DNA of 64,000 nucleotides. Origin: Actinokineospora xionganensis. GTDB lineage: Bacteria > Actinomycetota > Actinomycetes > Mycobacteriales > Pseudonocardiaceae. Below are positions 19,730 through 24,522 of the stretch, in pieces. The DNA lies in NCBI RefSeq assembly GCF_014323725.1, contig NZ_JABVED010000002.1, forward strand, positions 453,682 through 517,681. The letters are read 5' to 3'. The notes below the pieces were generated by a model, which made no database searches, had not been told where the DNA came from, and worked only from the letters and a program-made list of their open reading frames with translations. How positions within the stretch are numbered: position 1 is the stretch's first letter; each line of letters begins with the position of its first letter. The translations under genes and the position numbers were made by a program.

Positions 19730-20293
19730 ATGAGCCGCATGGAGGAGCCGGAGATCACCCTCGACATGCGTGCGGGCGCGCGGGCGAACCCGAACAGCTG
19801 GCTGTACGTGATCGACCCGGCGTTCGGCCACGACGAGGACGTACCGCCGTGGGGTGTGGTCGGGGCATACCCGGTCGACGACCGCGGCGAGATCGGTGAG
19901 ACGTTCCGCCCGAACGCCGACTACCGGCCCTCACCCGCCGCGCTGCGGATGCCGGTGCCGTCGAACCCGCTGGAGAAGATGCTCCAGCTGATCAAGACCC
20001 GCCACCGCGAGCAGCGCGAGCTGCTGCCCGCGGTGCTGGACGCGACCCTGCTCCTCTATTCGGCTTCGGCGGAGGACGAGGGCGTGACCGGGTTCCCGAA
20101 CCACGACGGCCGGGTGATGGTCCCGGCCTGCACCTCCGCCGCCCACGTCCCGGCGAACTGGCCGGGGTGGCGCGAGGTGCGCGGCCGTGACCTGGCCGGG
20201 CTGCTCTACGGGCACCCGCTCGTGCTGAACCCGATCGGCCCGATCACCGCCCTGGTCCCCGCGGCCGACCTCGCCCAAGCGGTGAACTGGTAG
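19730..20293 (+). CDS. Type VII secretion system-associated protein (SseB-like)
   Basis: A 187-residue soluble protein resembling the actinobacterial 'T7SS-associated protein' family. It has RANPNSWLYVIDPAF, the PPWGVVGAYPVDDRGEIGETFRPN block, YRPSP, and a C-terminal SseB-like half with RVMVPACTS and ITALVPAADL. The ATG 19730 is preferred over GTG 19712 because the conserved part starts later; ATG 19739 is also possible. It is divergent from the DUF3558 lipoprotein of satellite A, with starts only about 47 bases apart, so they likely share a regulatory region. Its molecular role is unknown. Confidence 0.75.
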   Translation: MSRMEEPEITLDMRAGARANPNSWLYVIDPAFGHDEDVPPWGVVGAYPVDDRGEIGETFRPNADYRPSPAALRMPVPSNPLEKMLQLIKTRHREQRELLPAVLDATLLLYSASAEDEGVTGFPNHDGRVMVPACTSAAHVPANWPGWREVRGRDLAGLLYGHPLVLNPIGPITALVPAADLAQAVNW

Positions 20294-20313
20294 CCACCGG
20301 GGCAGGCCATCAC

Positions 20314-21192
20314 TCAGCCGATCACGATTCCGAACTCGCCGATCCGCTCCGGGTCGGCGGTGATCTCGATGCCGACGATCTTTCCGTCGGCGACGGTGAA
20401 GCCGAAGACGACGCGCGGCGTGCCGCCCGGCGCCCACACGGCCGCGGGCGCGCCGTCGACCAGCGCTGGCTGAGCGGCCTGGGCGCGGCCGAGGAACGAA
20501 CCCGCCACCGCCGAGACGCCGCGGACCTCGCTCGCCAGGGCGGGCGCGCCGGGGCTGGCCGCCGCCGAGTTGACGGCCGTCTTGTCGGCGCGGAGCACGA
20601 CGTCCGGGTCGAGCAGGGGCAGCAATGCGTCGAAGTCGCCGCCGCGGGAGGCCGCCAGGAAGGCGTCGACGATCTCTCGGCGGCACGGGAGGTCGGCATC
20701 GGTCACGGGATCGGCGCCGCGGACACGGCGGCGGGCGCGGCTGGCCAGCTGCCGGGTGGCGGCGGGGGTGCGGCCGACGATCTCGGCGATCTCGTCGAAC
20801 GGGACGGCGAACAGGTCGTGCAGGACGAAGGCGAGGCGTTCGGCGGGCGCGAGTGTCTGCAGGACCACCAGGAGCGCGGGGCCGACCGAGTCCGCGAGCA
20901 GCGCTTCACGCGCGGGGTCGTCGCCCGCGACGGGTTCGGGCACGTCCTCGCCGAGTTCCTCGCGGCGGGACTTGCGGGTGCGCAGCATGTCGAGGCAGAC
21001 CCGGGCGACGACGGTCGTGAGCCAACCGCCCAGGTTGTCGAGCTCGTCCGTGTCGGCGCGGGTGAGCCGGAACCAGGCCTCCTGCACGGCGTCGTCGGCC
21101 TCGGTGGTCGACCCGAGGACCCGGAACGCGACCGCCCGCAGGTGCGCCCGGTTGTCCTCGAATCGCTGTGCGAGCTGGTCGTTCTTGTCCAT
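20314..21192 (-). CDS. ECF41-type (SigJ-like) sigma factor with SnoaL-like C-terminal domain
   Basis: A 292-residue sigma factor. Region 2 is at 10-75 (RFEDNRAHLRAVAFRVLGSTTEADDAVQEAWFRL) and region 4 at about 110-160 (LAPAERLAFVLHDLFAVPFDEIAEIVGRTPAATRQLASRARRRV). A SnoaL/NTF2-like domain of about 120 residues acts as a built-in regulator in ECF41 proteins. The C-terminal ADPERI fits the NPDKL-like motif, but the DGGG-type motif expected after DPDVVLRAD is absent. It is divergent from a carboxymuconolactone decarboxylase gene, the usual ECF41 partner. ECF41-type promoters precede both genes. Confidence 0.9.
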   Translation of the reverse strand: MDKNDQLAQRFEDNRAHLRAVAFRVLGSTTEADDAVQEAWFRLTRADTDELDNLGGWLTTVVARVCLDMLRTRKSRREELGEDVPEPVAGDDPAREALLADSVGPALLVVLQTLAPAERLAFVLHDLFAVPFDEIAEIVGRTPAATRQLASRARRRVRGADPVTDADLPCRREIVDAFLAASRGGDFDALLPLLDPDVVLRADKTAVNSAAASPGAPALASEVRGVSAVAGSFLGRAQAAQPALVDGAPAAVWAPGGTPRVVFGFTVADGKIVGIEITADPERIGEFGIVIG

Positions 21193-21220
21193 CGGTCACA
21201 TTCCTTCGTCGCGTTGCGTC
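21193..21220 (+). promoter_or_regulatory. ECF41-type promoter driving the decarboxylase gene
   Basis: CGGTCACA (21193-21200) and CGTC (21217-21220) are separated by 16 bases, matching the ECF41 signature TGTCACA-N16-CGTC at 6 of 7 and 4 of 4 positions. Transcription would start near 21227, about 45 bases before the decarboxylase ATG. Confidence 0.75.
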
Positions 21221-21228
21221 ATGCCATT

Positions 21229-21255
21229 GACGTTCGAAACACGGTCAATGTGACG
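21229..21255 (-). promoter_or_regulatory. ECF41-type promoter driving the sigma gene
   Basis: On the minus strand CGTCACA (21255-21249) is followed after 16 bases by CGTC (21232-21229), again the ECF41 signature. Transcription would start near 21222, giving a leader of about 30 bases before the sigma ATG at 21192. It faces the decarboxylase promoter, and the two leaders overlap. Confidence 0.75.
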
Positions 21256-21271
21256 AAGTGAGGAACCAGCC

Positions 21272-21727
21272 ATGCAGGCACGGATGAGCAACCCCGTCAT
21301 GATCATGCCCGACGCGATGAAGGCGATCCTGGCGCTCGACAAGGCGGTCAAGAAGAGCACCGTCCCGCACACGACCCTTGGGTTGGTGCACCTCCGGGTG
21401 AGCCAGATCAACGGGTGCGGCGTCTGCGTCGACGGCGGGGCGCGCCACGCCAAGAAGGCGGGCGAGACCGACGAGCGCCTGTTCACCGTGTCGGCTTGGC
21501 GGGAGGCGCCGTACTTCACCGACGCGGAGCGGGCGGCGCTGGCGCTGGCCGAGTCGGTCACCCGGATCAGCGACAGCATGGAGCCGGTCCCGGACGCGAT
21601 CTGGAACGAGGCCGCCCGCCACTACGACGAGCAGGCCCTCGCCGCGCTGCTGCTGTCGATCGCGACCACCAACGTCTGGAACCGCATCAATGTCGCCACT
21701 CGACAGCCCGCCACCGGCGGCTGGTAA
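21272..21727 (+). CDS. Carboxymuconolactone decarboxylase / AhpD-like protein
   Basis: A 151-residue helical protein of the CMD family, expected to form oligomers and to use a CxxC pair in peroxidase- or decarboxylase-type chemistry. The pair is in QINGCGVCVDGGARHAKKAGE. The histidine normally three residues after the second Cys (CxxCxxxH, as in IDMHT) is Gly here, and a His appears three residues later, so the proton relay may differ. WREAPYFTDAERAALALAES and the C-terminal AALLLSIATTNVWNRI are typical. It is the predicted main target of the adjacent ECF41 sigma. Confidence 0.88.
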   Translation: MQARMSNPVMIMPDAMKAILALDKAVKKSTVPHTTLGLVHLRVSQINGCGVCVDGGARHAKKAGETDERLFTVSAWREAPYFTDAERAALALAESVTRISDSMEPVPDAIWNEAARHYDEQALAALLLSIATTNVWNRINVATRQPATGGW

Positions 21728-21768
21728 ATCACGGGCGGGAGCGGTGGGCGTCGGCCACACTGGACGGC

Positions 21769-22170
21769 ATGATCGGACAGACGAAGGACGCTGGCTGGCA
21801 GATCGGCGTGTCCAGGACGCTCGCGCACCCGATTGACAAGGTGTGGGACCTCATCGCGGGCCGGGCGGGCCTGGACCTCTGGCTGGGCCCGGACGTAGAA
21901 CTCAAGCCGGAGAAGGGTTTCCGGTACGAGACGGCCACCGGCATCACCGGCGAGGTCCGCAGTTTCCATGAACACGACCGGATCCGGCTCACCTGGCGGC
22001 CCGCGGACTGGGACCACGACAGCACCGTCCAGGTCGCCATGGCGGCCGCGGGCGACCGGACGAAGCTGACCTTCCACCAGGAGTGGTTGACCGGCGCCGA
22101 GGAGCGGGAGCGTCAGCGCGCGTACTGGCAGGGAGTCATGGACAACGTCGTCGACGCCCTCGGAAGCTGA
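21769..22170 (+). CDS. SRPBCC / AHSA1-like ligand-binding protein
   Basis: A 133-residue START-like protein. The helix-grip fold is suggested by RTLAHPIDKVWDLIAG, LDLWLGPDVEL, TGEVRSFHEHDRIRLTWRP, KLTFHQEWL, and a long C-terminal helix REROR-type segment ending YWQGVMDNVVDAL. Such proteins bind hydrophobic ligands or assist in stress responses. The start ATG 21769 follows a 40-base gap after the decarboxylase gene, so the two could share the ECF41 promoter. Confidence 0.8.
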   Translation: MIGQTKDAGWQIGVSRTLAHPIDKVWDLIAGRAGLDLWLGPDVELKPEKGFRYETATGITGEVRSFHEHDRIRLTWRPADWDHDSTVQVAMAAAGDRTKLTFHQEWLTGAEERERQRAYWQGVMDNVVDALGS

Positions 22171-22173
22171 GCC

Positions 22174-22407
22174 CTACCAAGGGATCGGCCCGTGGCGGTC
22201 GTGGTAGCCGCCGGTCGGGCCGTCCGGTCCCGCGGTCGCCATCGCGATGATGGACTCGACGCCCTCGGCCACCGTCTGCGTTCCGCTGTGCCCGTTGATA
22301 TCCGTCGCGGTGTAGCCGGGGTCGACGGCGTTGACCCGCATGCCGGGCAGCGCTTTCGCGTACTGCGGCGTCACCGCGTCCAACGCGCTGGACCTGCTGC
22401 GGGTCAT
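22174..22407 (-). pseudogene. C-terminal fragment of a short-chain dehydrogenase/reductase
   Basis: About 75 residues remain: a run like SSALDAVTPQYAKALPG (the helix after the catalytic Tyr-Lys), then MRVNAVDPGYTATDINGHSGTQTVAEG and a C-terminal GYHDRHGPIPW. This is the end of an SDR of the carbonyl-reductase type. The Rossmann part, the catalytic Ser and the YxxxK itself are missing, and the break lies within 20 bases of the GGDEF-EAL gene stop, suggesting a deletion or insertion junction. It cannot be an active enzyme. Confidence 0.8.
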
Positions 22408-22425
22408 CGGGATCCAGCGGATGTC

Positions 22426-24522
22426 TCAGGACTCGAGCCAGCGCTCGATCTCCTCGGGCGGGCCGGGCTTGGCGAACAGCCAGCCCTGAGCGGTGTCGCA
22501 GCCGATCAGACGCAGCCGCTCGGCCTGCTCCGGGTCCTCGACGCCCTCGGCGACCACGTCGTGGCCCAGCGCGTGCGCCAGTTCGACAAGGGTCGACACG
22601 ATGCGCGCGTCGGCCTCGTCGGCGTCCGGCGCGGCGCGCAGCCCCTCCATGAAGCGGCCTGCGAGCTTGATCGAGTGCACGGGGAGATGCCGCAGGTAGG
22701 CCAGGTTCGAGTAGCCGGTGCCGAAGTCGTCGATGGCGATCCGCACACCCATGTCCGACAGGGCGCGCAGGGCTTCCAGTGGGACCCCGGTGGTGGCCAT
22801 GATGGCCGATTCGGTCAGCTCCAACTGGATGCTTGACGGCGGAAGCTCGGCGGCCCGCAGAATGGTGGCGATGTCGTCGACGAGGTTGGGTTCCACGGTC
22901 TGCCGGGCGGCAAGGTTGACACTGACCCACGGCGCCTCGTCCCCGTAGCTGTCCCGCCAGCGCCGGGCCTGCCTGGTGGCCTCGCGCAGGACCCAACGGC
23001 CCAGCGGCACGATCAGCCCGGTTTCCTCGGCCAGGCTGATGAACTGGTCGGGCCCCAGCCTGCCGAACTCCGGATGTGCCCACCGCACAAGGGCTTCGAC
23101 ACCGACCAGCTTGGTGTCGGAGAGCCGGACGATCGGCTGGTAGTCCACATAGAACTCTTCGCTCTCCACCGCCGCGGGCATCCGGGCGGCGAGGGTGAAC
23201 CGGGCGACCTCGCGCGCGTTGCGCTCGGAGTTGTAGCCCGCCCAACGGTTCTTGCCGTCCGCCTTGGCCCAGTACAGCGTGACGTCGGCGTCGCGCATGG
23301 TCTCGGCGGGAGTCGTGCCCGCGACGGGCCGCTCGACCAGGCCGATGCTGGCCGACACCGACAGCCGGTGGCCGCCGATTCGTACCGGCACGGCGAACGC
23401 CGCGAGGATCTGTTCGGCCAGCGCGATGACCTCGTCGATGCTCTCGCAGTGCTCGATCAGCACCACGAACTCGTCGCCGCCCATCCGCGCCACCAGCCGG
23501 TCGGGGCCGGAGACCAGGCCTTCGAGCCGGATCGCCACCGCCGCCAGCAACTCGTCGCCGATGTCGTGGCCGAGGCTGTCGTTGATGACTTTGAAGCCGT
23601 CGAGGTCGAGGTAGCAGATGCCGACGCGGTGGTCGCCGCCCTTGGCGAAGGCGGCGTTGAGCCGCTCGGTGAACAGCGCCCGGTTGCCCAGCCCGGTCAA
23701 GGGGTCGTGGTTGGCCTGGTGTCGCAGGCGCTGTTCGAGCAGGTGCCGTTCGGTGATGTCCTCCAGCATGCCGACGACGAACTGCGGCGCCCCGGCCTCG
23801 TCGCGCACGAGCGTCACCGACAGGTCAGTCCACAGTGGACTTCCGTCGGACTTGCGCAGCATCCGTTCCATCCGGTAGCTGTCACGCCGCCCGGTCAGCA
23901 GCTCCTTGAGCGGCCTGCGCATCGCGGAGGGCTCATCGGGGTAGCGCAGGTCGTCGACGTGCATTCCCGGCATCTTTTCGACCGGGTAGTCGAACATGCG
24001 GGCGCACGCGGAGTTGACCTCGACCAGCGTGCCGTTGGAGTCGGTGATCGCGATGCCGACGGCGGTCTGGGTGAACATCGCCTTGAACCGGGCCTCACTG
24101 GCCAGCAGTGCGGTCTCGGCGCCGCGGCGCGCGTCCATCACGGCTTGGCGGATCTCCTCCTGGTCGCGGAAGATCCGCTGCTGCATGGCGGCGGTGAAGC
24201 CCGCGGCGAACGCCGACAGCAGCGCGGGCAGCAGGTGCACGCGGTCCTTGTCGACCATGTGCGCCAGCCGCTCACCGATGAGCTGCAAGGAACACGCGAG
24301 AGTCCGCGGCGAAGTGAGACCTAGATCGACCAGGGCGGCGCCGACAGCGGCGGCCGGGGACGGGTCGAACCGGTCGCGGCCGAGCGCCGCGAGCAGAGAT
24401 TGGGTGTGGCGGCCGACGTGCACGACGAGGTCGCCGCAGTTCAACGCCACATAGCCCGTCGCGGCCAGCGCGGTCGCCCACAGCTCCGCGAATGCGTCGC
24501 GCTCGCCCGGTGCGCAGTCCAC
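22426..24522 (-). CDS. PAS-GGDEF-EAL c-di-GMP signalling protein
   Basis: A 698-residue cytosolic protein: a helical N-terminal domain (about 1-140), PAS (about 145-265), GGDEF (about 270-430) and EAL (about 445-690). The cyclase motif GGDEF is intact at 348-352 but no RxxD inhibitory site precedes it. In the EAL part, E476-A-L, NLAA, ELTES, IDDFGTGYS, AEGVED and AQGW are all present. The usual KID motif, however, reads K619-L-A621, so one metal-binding Asp is replaced by Ala. Synthesis is therefore likely and hydrolysis may be weak or lost. GTG 24522 has AAGGGG upstream. It could set the c-di-GMP level sensed by RsiG. Confidence 0.92.
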   Translation of the reverse strand: MDCAPGERDAFAELWATALAATGYVALNCGDLVVHVGRHTQSLLAALGRDRFDPSPAAAVGAALVDLGLTSPRTLACSLQLIGERLAHMVDKDRVHLLPALLSAFAAGFTAAMQQRIFRDQEEIRQAVMDARRGAETALLASEARFKAMFTQTAVGIAITDSNGTLVEVNSACARMFDYPVEKMPGMHVDDLRYPDEPSAMRRPLKELLTGRRDSYRMERMLRKSDGSPLWTDLSVTLVRDEAGAPQFVVGMLEDITERHLLEQRLRHQANHDPLTGLGNRALFTERLNAAFAKGGDHRVGICYLDLDGFKVINDSLGHDIGDELLAAVAIRLEGLVSGPDRLVARMGGDEFVVLIEHCESIDEVIALAEQILAAFAVPVRIGGHRLSVSASIGLVERPVAGTTPAETMRDADVTLYWAKADGKNRWAGYNSERNAREVARFTLAARMPAAVESEEFYVDYQPIVRLSDTKLVGVEALVRWAHPEFGRLGPDQFISLAEETGLIVPLGRWVLREATRQARRWRDSYGDEAPWVSVNLAARQTVEPNLVDDIATILRAAELPPSSIQLELTESAIMATTGVPLEALRALSDMGVRIAIDDFGTGYSNLAYLRHLPVHSIKLAGRFMEGLRAAPDADEADARIVSTLVELAHALGHDVVAEGVEDPEQAERLRLIGCDTAQGWLFAKPGPPEEIERWLES

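Follow-up and report, generated by a model that had tools for sequence, protein, structure and literature searches.

Face-to-face ECF41-type promoters between an ECF sigma factor gene and a decarboxylase gene form a probable bidirectional, autoregulatory element with a recurring spacing

In the 64-kb window (the whole stretch of Actinokineospora xionganensis DNA that was analysed), an ECF sigma factor gene on the minus strand and a carboxymuconolactone decarboxylase gene on the plus strand flank an intergenic region of 79 bp. This region contains a 60-bp element that is most probably a symmetric, bidirectional and autoregulatory promoter, read by the sigma factor encoded next to it. The interpretation is supported by sequence comparison, i.e. 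by the pairing of two promoter motifs, the near-fixed gap between them, their association with a single sigma clade and the covariation of sigma residues with both sides of the element. The recurrence of the spacing in distant bacteria suggests that both directions can be read from one and the same opened stretch of DNA.

The sigma gene (20314-21192, minus strand) encodes a protein of 292 residues that matches Pfam Sigma70_r2 and Sigma70_r4_2, with sigma2 at residues 11-75, sigma4 at residues 107-156 and a C-terminal extension predicted to be NTF2/SnoaL-like; its key residues are D68, R147 and Q148. The presumed target gene (21272-21727, plus strand) encodes a carboxymuconolactone decarboxylase/AhpD-like protein of 151 residues with a CxxC motif (CGVC), which matches Pfam CMD (4.3e-18) and the AhpD core domain model TIGR00778. 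The element between them (21195-21254, both strands) is a face-to-face composite, GTCACA-N16-CGTC-N8-GACG-N16-TGTGAC, whose blocks lie on the plus strand at 21195-21200 (GTCACA), 21217-21220 (CGTC), 21229-21232 (GACG) and 21249-21254 (TGTGAC). Base-by-base checking confirmed the sites proposed in the first-pass annotation, namely CGGTCACA-N16-CGTC on the plus strand (21193-21220), CGTCACA-N16-CGTC with the same 16-base spacing on the minus strand (21255-21229), and facing -10 elements (21217-21220 and 21229-21232) 8 bp apart. Its statement that both sites match the published ECF41 signature, TGTCACA-N16-CGTC (available text of PMC3426412), holds for GTCACA-N16-CGTC on both strands and fails for the first T of the consensus, which is replaced by G and C. 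The decarboxylase promoter thus comprises a -35 element GGTCACA (21194-21200, plus strand) and a -10 element CGTC, extended to CGTCA (21217-21221), and the sigma promoter a -35 element CGTCACA (21249-21255, minus strand) and a -10 element CGTC, likewise extended to CGTCA (21228-21232). The two -10 elements are symmetric yet separate. Shine-Dalgarno-like sequences precede the sigma gene (AAGGA, 21202-21206, minus strand) and the decarboxylase gene (GAGGA, 21260-21264, plus strand), and the decarboxylase -35, on the opposite strand, sits between the sigma Shine-Dalgarno sequence and the sigma ATG.

A chance origin of the element was rejected by a spacer search in the window, by shuffling and by a genome-wide composite scan. 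With spacers of 14-19 allowed, GTCACA...CGTC occurs within the 64-kb window at these two sites alone; 0 of 100 shuffles contained the composite, which the window has once, and a relaxed composite is found at a single place in the 6.8-Mb genome, with 0 occurrences of a reversed-pattern control. Single half-sites are near chance genome-wide (14 matches versus 9 for the reversed-pattern control), so that the pair is the signal. Neither sigma-70-like promoters nor terminators were found within 20200-22450.

A scan of the genome collection on DNA alone, permitting 0-30 bp between the -10 elements, yielded at least 119 loci, with a gap of 8 bp in 106, of 9 in five and of 11 in three, and gaps of 5, 10, 21, 23 and 24 in one each; the gap counter additionally contained two copies of the window's own element. 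The gap-8 loci among the listed matches are distributed over seven named phyla: Pseudomonadota (48), Actinomycetota (44), Acidobacteriota (5), Chloroflexota (4), Myxococcota (2), Dormiibacterota (1) and Armatimonadota (1), with one locus unassigned. A divergent sigma homologue starts at most 250 bp away in 103 of these 106 listed loci, the exceptions being L069 (contig end near the element), L110 (sigma start estimated to be 475 bp off) and L132 (no hit). On the opposite side, 70 of the 106 listed gap-8 loci carry a decarboxylase homologue. Other partner open reading frames, at loci lacking a decarboxylase match, of which 35 of 39 listed were given to Pfam, include NmrA/epimerase-type (4), glyoxalase (3), MFS (2), FAD-binding (1) and pyridoxamine-oxidase-type (1) proteins; these frames are longest-ORF calls, several of them doubtful and some wrong, and eight further loci had no usable frame or sigma gene. 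The inner six bases between the -10 elements show a mean pairwise identity of 34%, and the N16 spacers of 47-48%. Distances from the element to the estimated decarboxylase start vary from 12 to 172 bp in 48 of 49 loci among the listed matches; for the remaining one the estimate is -19.

Among the listed matches, 103 gap-8 elements lie next to a sigma gene; removal of near-duplicates left 80 of them, from which a sequence logo was derived. The extra A of the extended -10 is present in 90% of these 80 elements in the sigma promoter, and its mirror in the target promoter is conserved in 89%. In 42 of the 80, the sigma gene is estimated to start 2-3 bp past the opposing -35, so that the target -35 doubles as the spacer between the sigma Shine-Dalgarno sequence and start codon. 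A T follows GTCACA in 68% of the 80 for the sigma promoter, and its mirror is found in 75% for the target promoter. Both leaders in the window carry ATG-TGA, a start codon with an immediate stop (21248-21253, plus strand; 21196-21201, minus strand), as GTCACAT, read in reverse, gives ATGTGAC.

The recurrence was also assessed in a survey that was not conditioned on the promoter, for which 183 sigma loci were drawn from the window's own genome, from 197 genomes belonging to its phylum and from 120 belonging to its family. The survey represents the higher-ranked sigma matches, with at most 12 or 20 candidates scored per genome; nine weak own-genome matches (L139-L147) and lower-ranked ones fall outside it. 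With at most one mismatch per promoter, and with the pair nearest to gap 8 taken in the case of ties, 54 of 124 high-scoring homologues and 3 of 59 low-scoring ones have both promoters. The gaps in these 54 are 8 (21 loci), 9 (19), -64 (3), -63 (1) and -13, i.e. overlapping (2), together with eight other values that occur once each. When scored with gaps of 7-10, elements reaching 18 or more were present in 73 of 124 high-scoring homologues, in 1 of 58 lower-scoring homologues (one locus, short of upstream DNA, being left out) and in 0 of 183 coding controls. At a score of at least 16, the gap is 8 in 51 and 9 in 38 survey elements, with gaps 7 and 10 found once each among 91 elements under a penalty of 0.7. 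Since a 9-bp gap is common in the survey, the spacing is best described as 8 or 9; switches between the two amount to 13 parsimony changes. In an assumption-free count of inverted repeats (9 of 10 mirrored bases), a gap of 8 was seen in 22 of 117 non-redundant upstream regions versus 2 coding controls, and gaps of 6, 7, 9, 10 and 12 in 13-20 regions each; this count is in agreement with the other results but does not pin down the gap, as symmetric bases on the flanks allow the frame to shift. Divergent decarboxylase loci score at least 17 in 23 of 26 cases, compared with 0 of 12 loci in which the decarboxylase lies upstream in the same direction; among the 23, L238 is actually back-to-back and L160 has a poor sigma-directed -35. 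A second recurring geometry consists of back-to-back promoters upstream of the sigma gene with 12 bp between the -35 elements (L215, L238 and L260, the gap of -64) or 11 bp (L167, the gap of -63), L215 belonging to the window's own genus.

The element is associated with one side of the sigma phylogeny. A FastTree phylogeny built on the sigma2-sigma4 core has as its best split (printed support 72) one between 234 sequences on the window's side and 60 others, which include homologues from Sinorhizobium (S.) meliloti and Paracoccus. With presence defined as a score of at least 17 and at least 7 in both halves, an element with gap 8 or 9 was found in 78 of 127 surveyed members of the window clade, versus 0 of 54 canonical ECF41-type relatives (L135 and L295, both among the 54, are the same place counted twice); 49 of the 127 lack it at this cut-off. 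The classification of the window protein as a canonical ECF41 sigma factor is contradicted by its position on the separate side of the tree, where the WLP linker occurs in 0 of 234 sequences and a DGG-like motif in 16 of 234, as compared with 54 of 60 and 47 of 60 on the other side, and where the majority has ADPxRL in place of the canonical NPDKL. The window sigma itself lacks both WLPEP, the linker called highly conserved in ECF41 in the available text of PMC3426412, and NPDKL, a motif of the C-terminal domain named in that of PMC7730460; it has VPEP and ADPERI at the respective sites. Three paralogues in the same genome (L135, L136 and L138) are canonical, with WLP, a DGGG-like motif and NPDK.

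The absence of a DGGG-type motif from the C-terminal domain, as reported in the first-pass annotation, is borne out by ADKTA at the place where the motif is expected. Its reading as a sign of altered control does not follow, since the absence is shared by most clade members: among the scan sigmas long enough for alignment (106 of the at least 119 loci with all gaps, 96 of them at gap 8), the listed matches contain a strict DGG in 0 and D..G in 5. The name of the motif has 0 occurrences in the main text of the papers searched for it. Of the features by which ECF41 is recognised, the locus has the promoter signature, with the first T replaced, an adjacent COE gene (a CxxC decarboxylase, oxidoreductase or epimerase; here the decarboxylase) and a large C-terminal extension predicted to be SnoaL/NTF2-like, and no anti-sigma gene was recognised among the neighbours scanned. 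Pfam SnoaL_2 has no match in the window sigma, and the NCBIfam models SigJ, SigX4 and SigI all match it below cut-off. An AlphaFold2 model (mean pLDDT 89.9, pTM 0.55) has an alpha+beta C-terminal domain, and the predicted fold matches SigJ (5xe7), SigG1 and NTF2-like enzymes such as ketosteroid isomerase. On the basis of this model the extension probably belongs to the same domain type and has diverged in its motifs. By the motifs tested the window sigma is not canonical ECF41, although its behaviour at the promoter appears to be that of an ECF41 protein.

The sigma factor and the element are also linked by residue covariation on both sides. The two -10 elements belong to the same class in 65 of 73 elements (CG/CG 38, [GTA]G/[GTA]G 22, G[CT]/G[CT] 5) and differ in 8; a 2x2 test of CG against non-CG in the two halves gives p = 4.6e-12, uncorrected for relatedness. 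The -35 elements agree in 57 of 73 and differ in 16. Among the 65 elements with one -10 class, no other sigma column comes near position 68 (LDMLR, region 2) in mutual information with this class: D accompanies CG in 38/38, N accompanies [GTA]G in 22/22 and H accompanies G[CT] in 5/5. Among the 57 with one -35 class, position 147 (sigma4 segment TRQLASR) is the top-ranked column, with T at GTCA[TG] in 4/4, K at GTTAC in 3/3, and R (46) or K (4) at GTCAC; the altered -35 classes are small, with seven loci. When agreement of the halves is not required, 65 of 76 loci with D or N fit in both halves and the other 11 in one half only. The 12 unidirectional loci follow the same pattern, with CGTC and D in 4/4 and TGTC and N in 8/8. 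The aligned scan sigmas among the listed matches (DNA-only selection, all gaps) have D68 and R147 in 106/106; in the survey clade D68 is found in 74/127 and R147 in 106/127. Residue 68 changes 11 times on the best tree, counting supported and unsupported branches, and tree-corrected covariation on supported branches leaves 2-3 independent pairs, none opposed, a non-significant result of an underpowered comparison. Eight loci (L169, L172, L191, L201, L204, L211, L233 and L235) have altered -35 elements on both sides, of the GTTAC type or GTCA[TG], together with changed residues 147/148 (K-M or T-Q). These changes could possibly represent a code for ECF -35 specificity. From the covariation with both half-sites, it is very likely that the cognate sigma factor reads both, and hence that it drives itself and the decarboxylase from one place, as had been proposed.

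The same data bear on two other explanations. An inverted repeat between divergent genes has the usual look of an operator, and the CGTCA-N6-TGACG palindrome with its TGTCACA arms might be bound by a dimeric transcription factor instead of being a promoter pair. This is highly improbable: both arms match an experimentally supported sigma promoter including the N16 spacer (available text of PMC3426412), sigma residue 68 varies together with the -10 block and residues 147/148 with the -35 block, and the sigma factor is the sole transcription regulator that Pfam recognises among six neighbouring proteins scanned. Alternatively, one promoter alone might matter, the other being a weak relic, as could be suspected from the high-scoring homologues in which, at no more than one mismatch, a sigma-directed (31/124) or a target-directed promoter (11/124) stands alone; neither was found in 28. 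For the window this appears unlikely, as both halves carry a full GTCACA and CGTCA, in the different specificity classes the residues of the sigma factor mostly fit the half-site on either side, and the available text of PMC3426412 records, among 55 divergent ECF41 loci, 36 with a promoter for the sigma gene and 41 with one for the target.

To place the transcription starts on the element, the motif-to-start distance was taken from a canonical relative of another phylum. For SMb20029-rpoE9 of S. meliloti, transcription was mapped to start 9 nt downstream of the motif (available text of PMC3616915). In PMC3426412, as far as its text was available, Wecke et al. located a start at G in each of two organisms, at 22/23 bp from the start codon; for these genes Table 5 lists 31 and 32, a difference that would equal 9 nt if the table measures from the motif. 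The presumed orthologous operon of S. meliloti ml47, chosen by gene order and annotation, reads CGTC-ATGGTGTC-G, i.e. with a G at the expected +1. At the same offset, 12 unidirectional actinobacterial promoters have A (6), G (5) or T (1), so that the precise start could differ. Applied to the window, the distance predicts starts at G21229 (plus strand) for the decarboxylase and at 21220 (minus strand) for the sigma gene, in each direction the first base of the opposing GACG, with 9 bp between the starts and leaders of 43 nt and 28 nt, respectively. GACG is found at the expected +1 in only 1 of the 12 unidirectional promoters, by which the possibility was rejected that it is simply an initial transcribed sequence lying downstream of such promoters. 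The first-pass annotation was right that each leader covers the opposing promoter, and too cautious in that it would be the whole promoter, not part of it, if transcription starts 9 nt after CGTC. The overlap of transcripts that it implied is not expected with starts at that distance, as mapped in S. meliloti.

The usual transcription bubble extends from about -11 to +3. With a gap of 8, the melted region would map onto itself when the element is reversed; each +1 would coincide with the final base pair of the -10 facing it, and the same ~14 bp would be opened in either orientation. In the mechanism that we propose, the sigma factor, probably activated through its NTF2-like C-terminal domain, would bind as RNA polymerase holoenzyme to one half-site, either the decarboxylase-facing -35/-10 pair or its sigma-facing mirror. 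Given the size of the polymerase footprint, binding in one orientation is expected to exclude the other, and one polymerase at a time should fit. The circuit would combine positive feedback with activation of the target, and the ratio of sigma factor to target would be set by the strengths of the two half-sites. Interference between the two promoters, as predicted earlier, is plausible; for five bidirectional promoters of Escherichia (E.) coli, basal transcription is described as too low for competition (available text of PMC12825309).

A more general proposal is that the whole ECF sigma clade operates on a single symmetric initiation site, with the gap held at 8-9 bp for a shared bubble, orientation choice setting the sigma:target ratio, and residues 68 and 147/148 forcing the half-sites to co-evolve. 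This is put forward tentatively, as an idea that may well hold and is slightly more apt to fail. The low identity of the inner bases, the near-fixed gap and the variable decarboxylase leader together support the shared bubble. It is also quite possible, though somewhat less likely than not, that both promoters are real and that the gap of 8-9 bp reflects ancestry and compactness with no constraint from a shared bubble. All surveyed element-bearing loci fall in one sigma clade, and the sigma start is near-fixed as well, at the 2-3 bp past the element noted above, as if a short intergenic region were favoured. Against this explanation, the inner six bases have undergone many substitutions and indels are common next door, whereas the gap hardly moves, and gaps of 8 and 9 interchange while 7 and 10 are rare.

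Promoters in front of both genes of divergent ECF41 loci are known, as are bidirectional promoters of housekeeping sigma factors. The divergent <ECF< >COE> loci of PMC3426412 share with the window the TGTCACA-N16-CGTC signature, the type of gene pair and the C-terminal extension of the sigma factor; they differ in that the relative geometry of the promoters was not found in the available text and in that the window sigma is without WLPEP. The bidirectional promoters of E. coli and Salmonella, as described in the available text of PMC12825309 and PMC10268837, consist of pseudo-symmetric DNA used in two orientations with mutually exclusive binding. Their divergent starts lie 7-25 bp apart by definition of the range in PMC10268837, with 18 bp the commonest distance and 10 and 23 bp also common in PMC12825309; the 9 bp predicted for the window would be close to the common distance of 10 bp. 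In these housekeeping-sigma promoters, the starts flank or fall within a shared -10, whereas here two complete alternative-sigma -35/-10 pairs flank the predicted starts and the spacing recurs over phyla. In the literature searched, which lies mostly outside subscription journals, no report was found of a locked face-to-face spacing or of a two-sided residue code.

Two characterised sigma factors are close enough for comparison. Mycobacterium (M.) tuberculosis SigJ (ECF41; 5xe7) is the best solved sequence relative, aligning over residues 9-283, and is the top fold match with its sigma2-sigma4-SnoaL-like architecture. It differs from the window sigma by an identity of 36-38% in the fold alignment and by WLPEP and NPDK in place of VPEP and DPER; the global TM-score with the window model is 0.33, as expected if the domain arrangement differs or is mispredicted (pTM 0.55). 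S. meliloti RpoE9/SMb20029 (available text of PMC6180224 and PMC3616915) shares the promoter consensus, a decarboxylase target and, in the ml47 sigma, D68, R147 and Q148, and offers a mapped start. Unlike the window locus, its target and sigma gene form one operon with a single promoter and no mirror element, and its sigma factor has the canonical WLP, DGGG and NPDKL.

In place of a vague notion of divergent autoregulation, the comparison offers a near-fixed geometry open to testing through single-base changes of the spacing. It also provides a natural, two-sided record of sigma-promoter specificity, with residue 68 against the -10 and residues 147/148 against the -35, which should be useful for ECF promoter prediction and for orthogonal bidirectional switches. 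To the recently described bidirectional promoters of housekeeping sigma factors it adds a case that involves an alternative sigma factor and recurs over phyla.

Pfam recognised no anti-sigma gene among the scanned neighbours (CMD, AHSA1, SseB-like, DUF3558 and GGDEF-EAL). An AHSA1-domain gene (21769-22170, plus strand) starts 41 nt after the decarboxylase gene on the same strand; as no homologue of it was found at the other 112 of 113 decarboxylase-bearing loci examined, it is probably a lineage-specific neighbour. Beyond it lies a frame at about 22175-22423 (minus strand) with no start codon in the list of open reading frames, which we take to resemble the C-terminal end of a short-chain dehydrogenase and which is perhaps a gene remnant. 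A PAS-GGDEF-EAL protein, possibly a cyclic di-GMP enzyme, is encoded near the element at 22429-24522 (minus strand).
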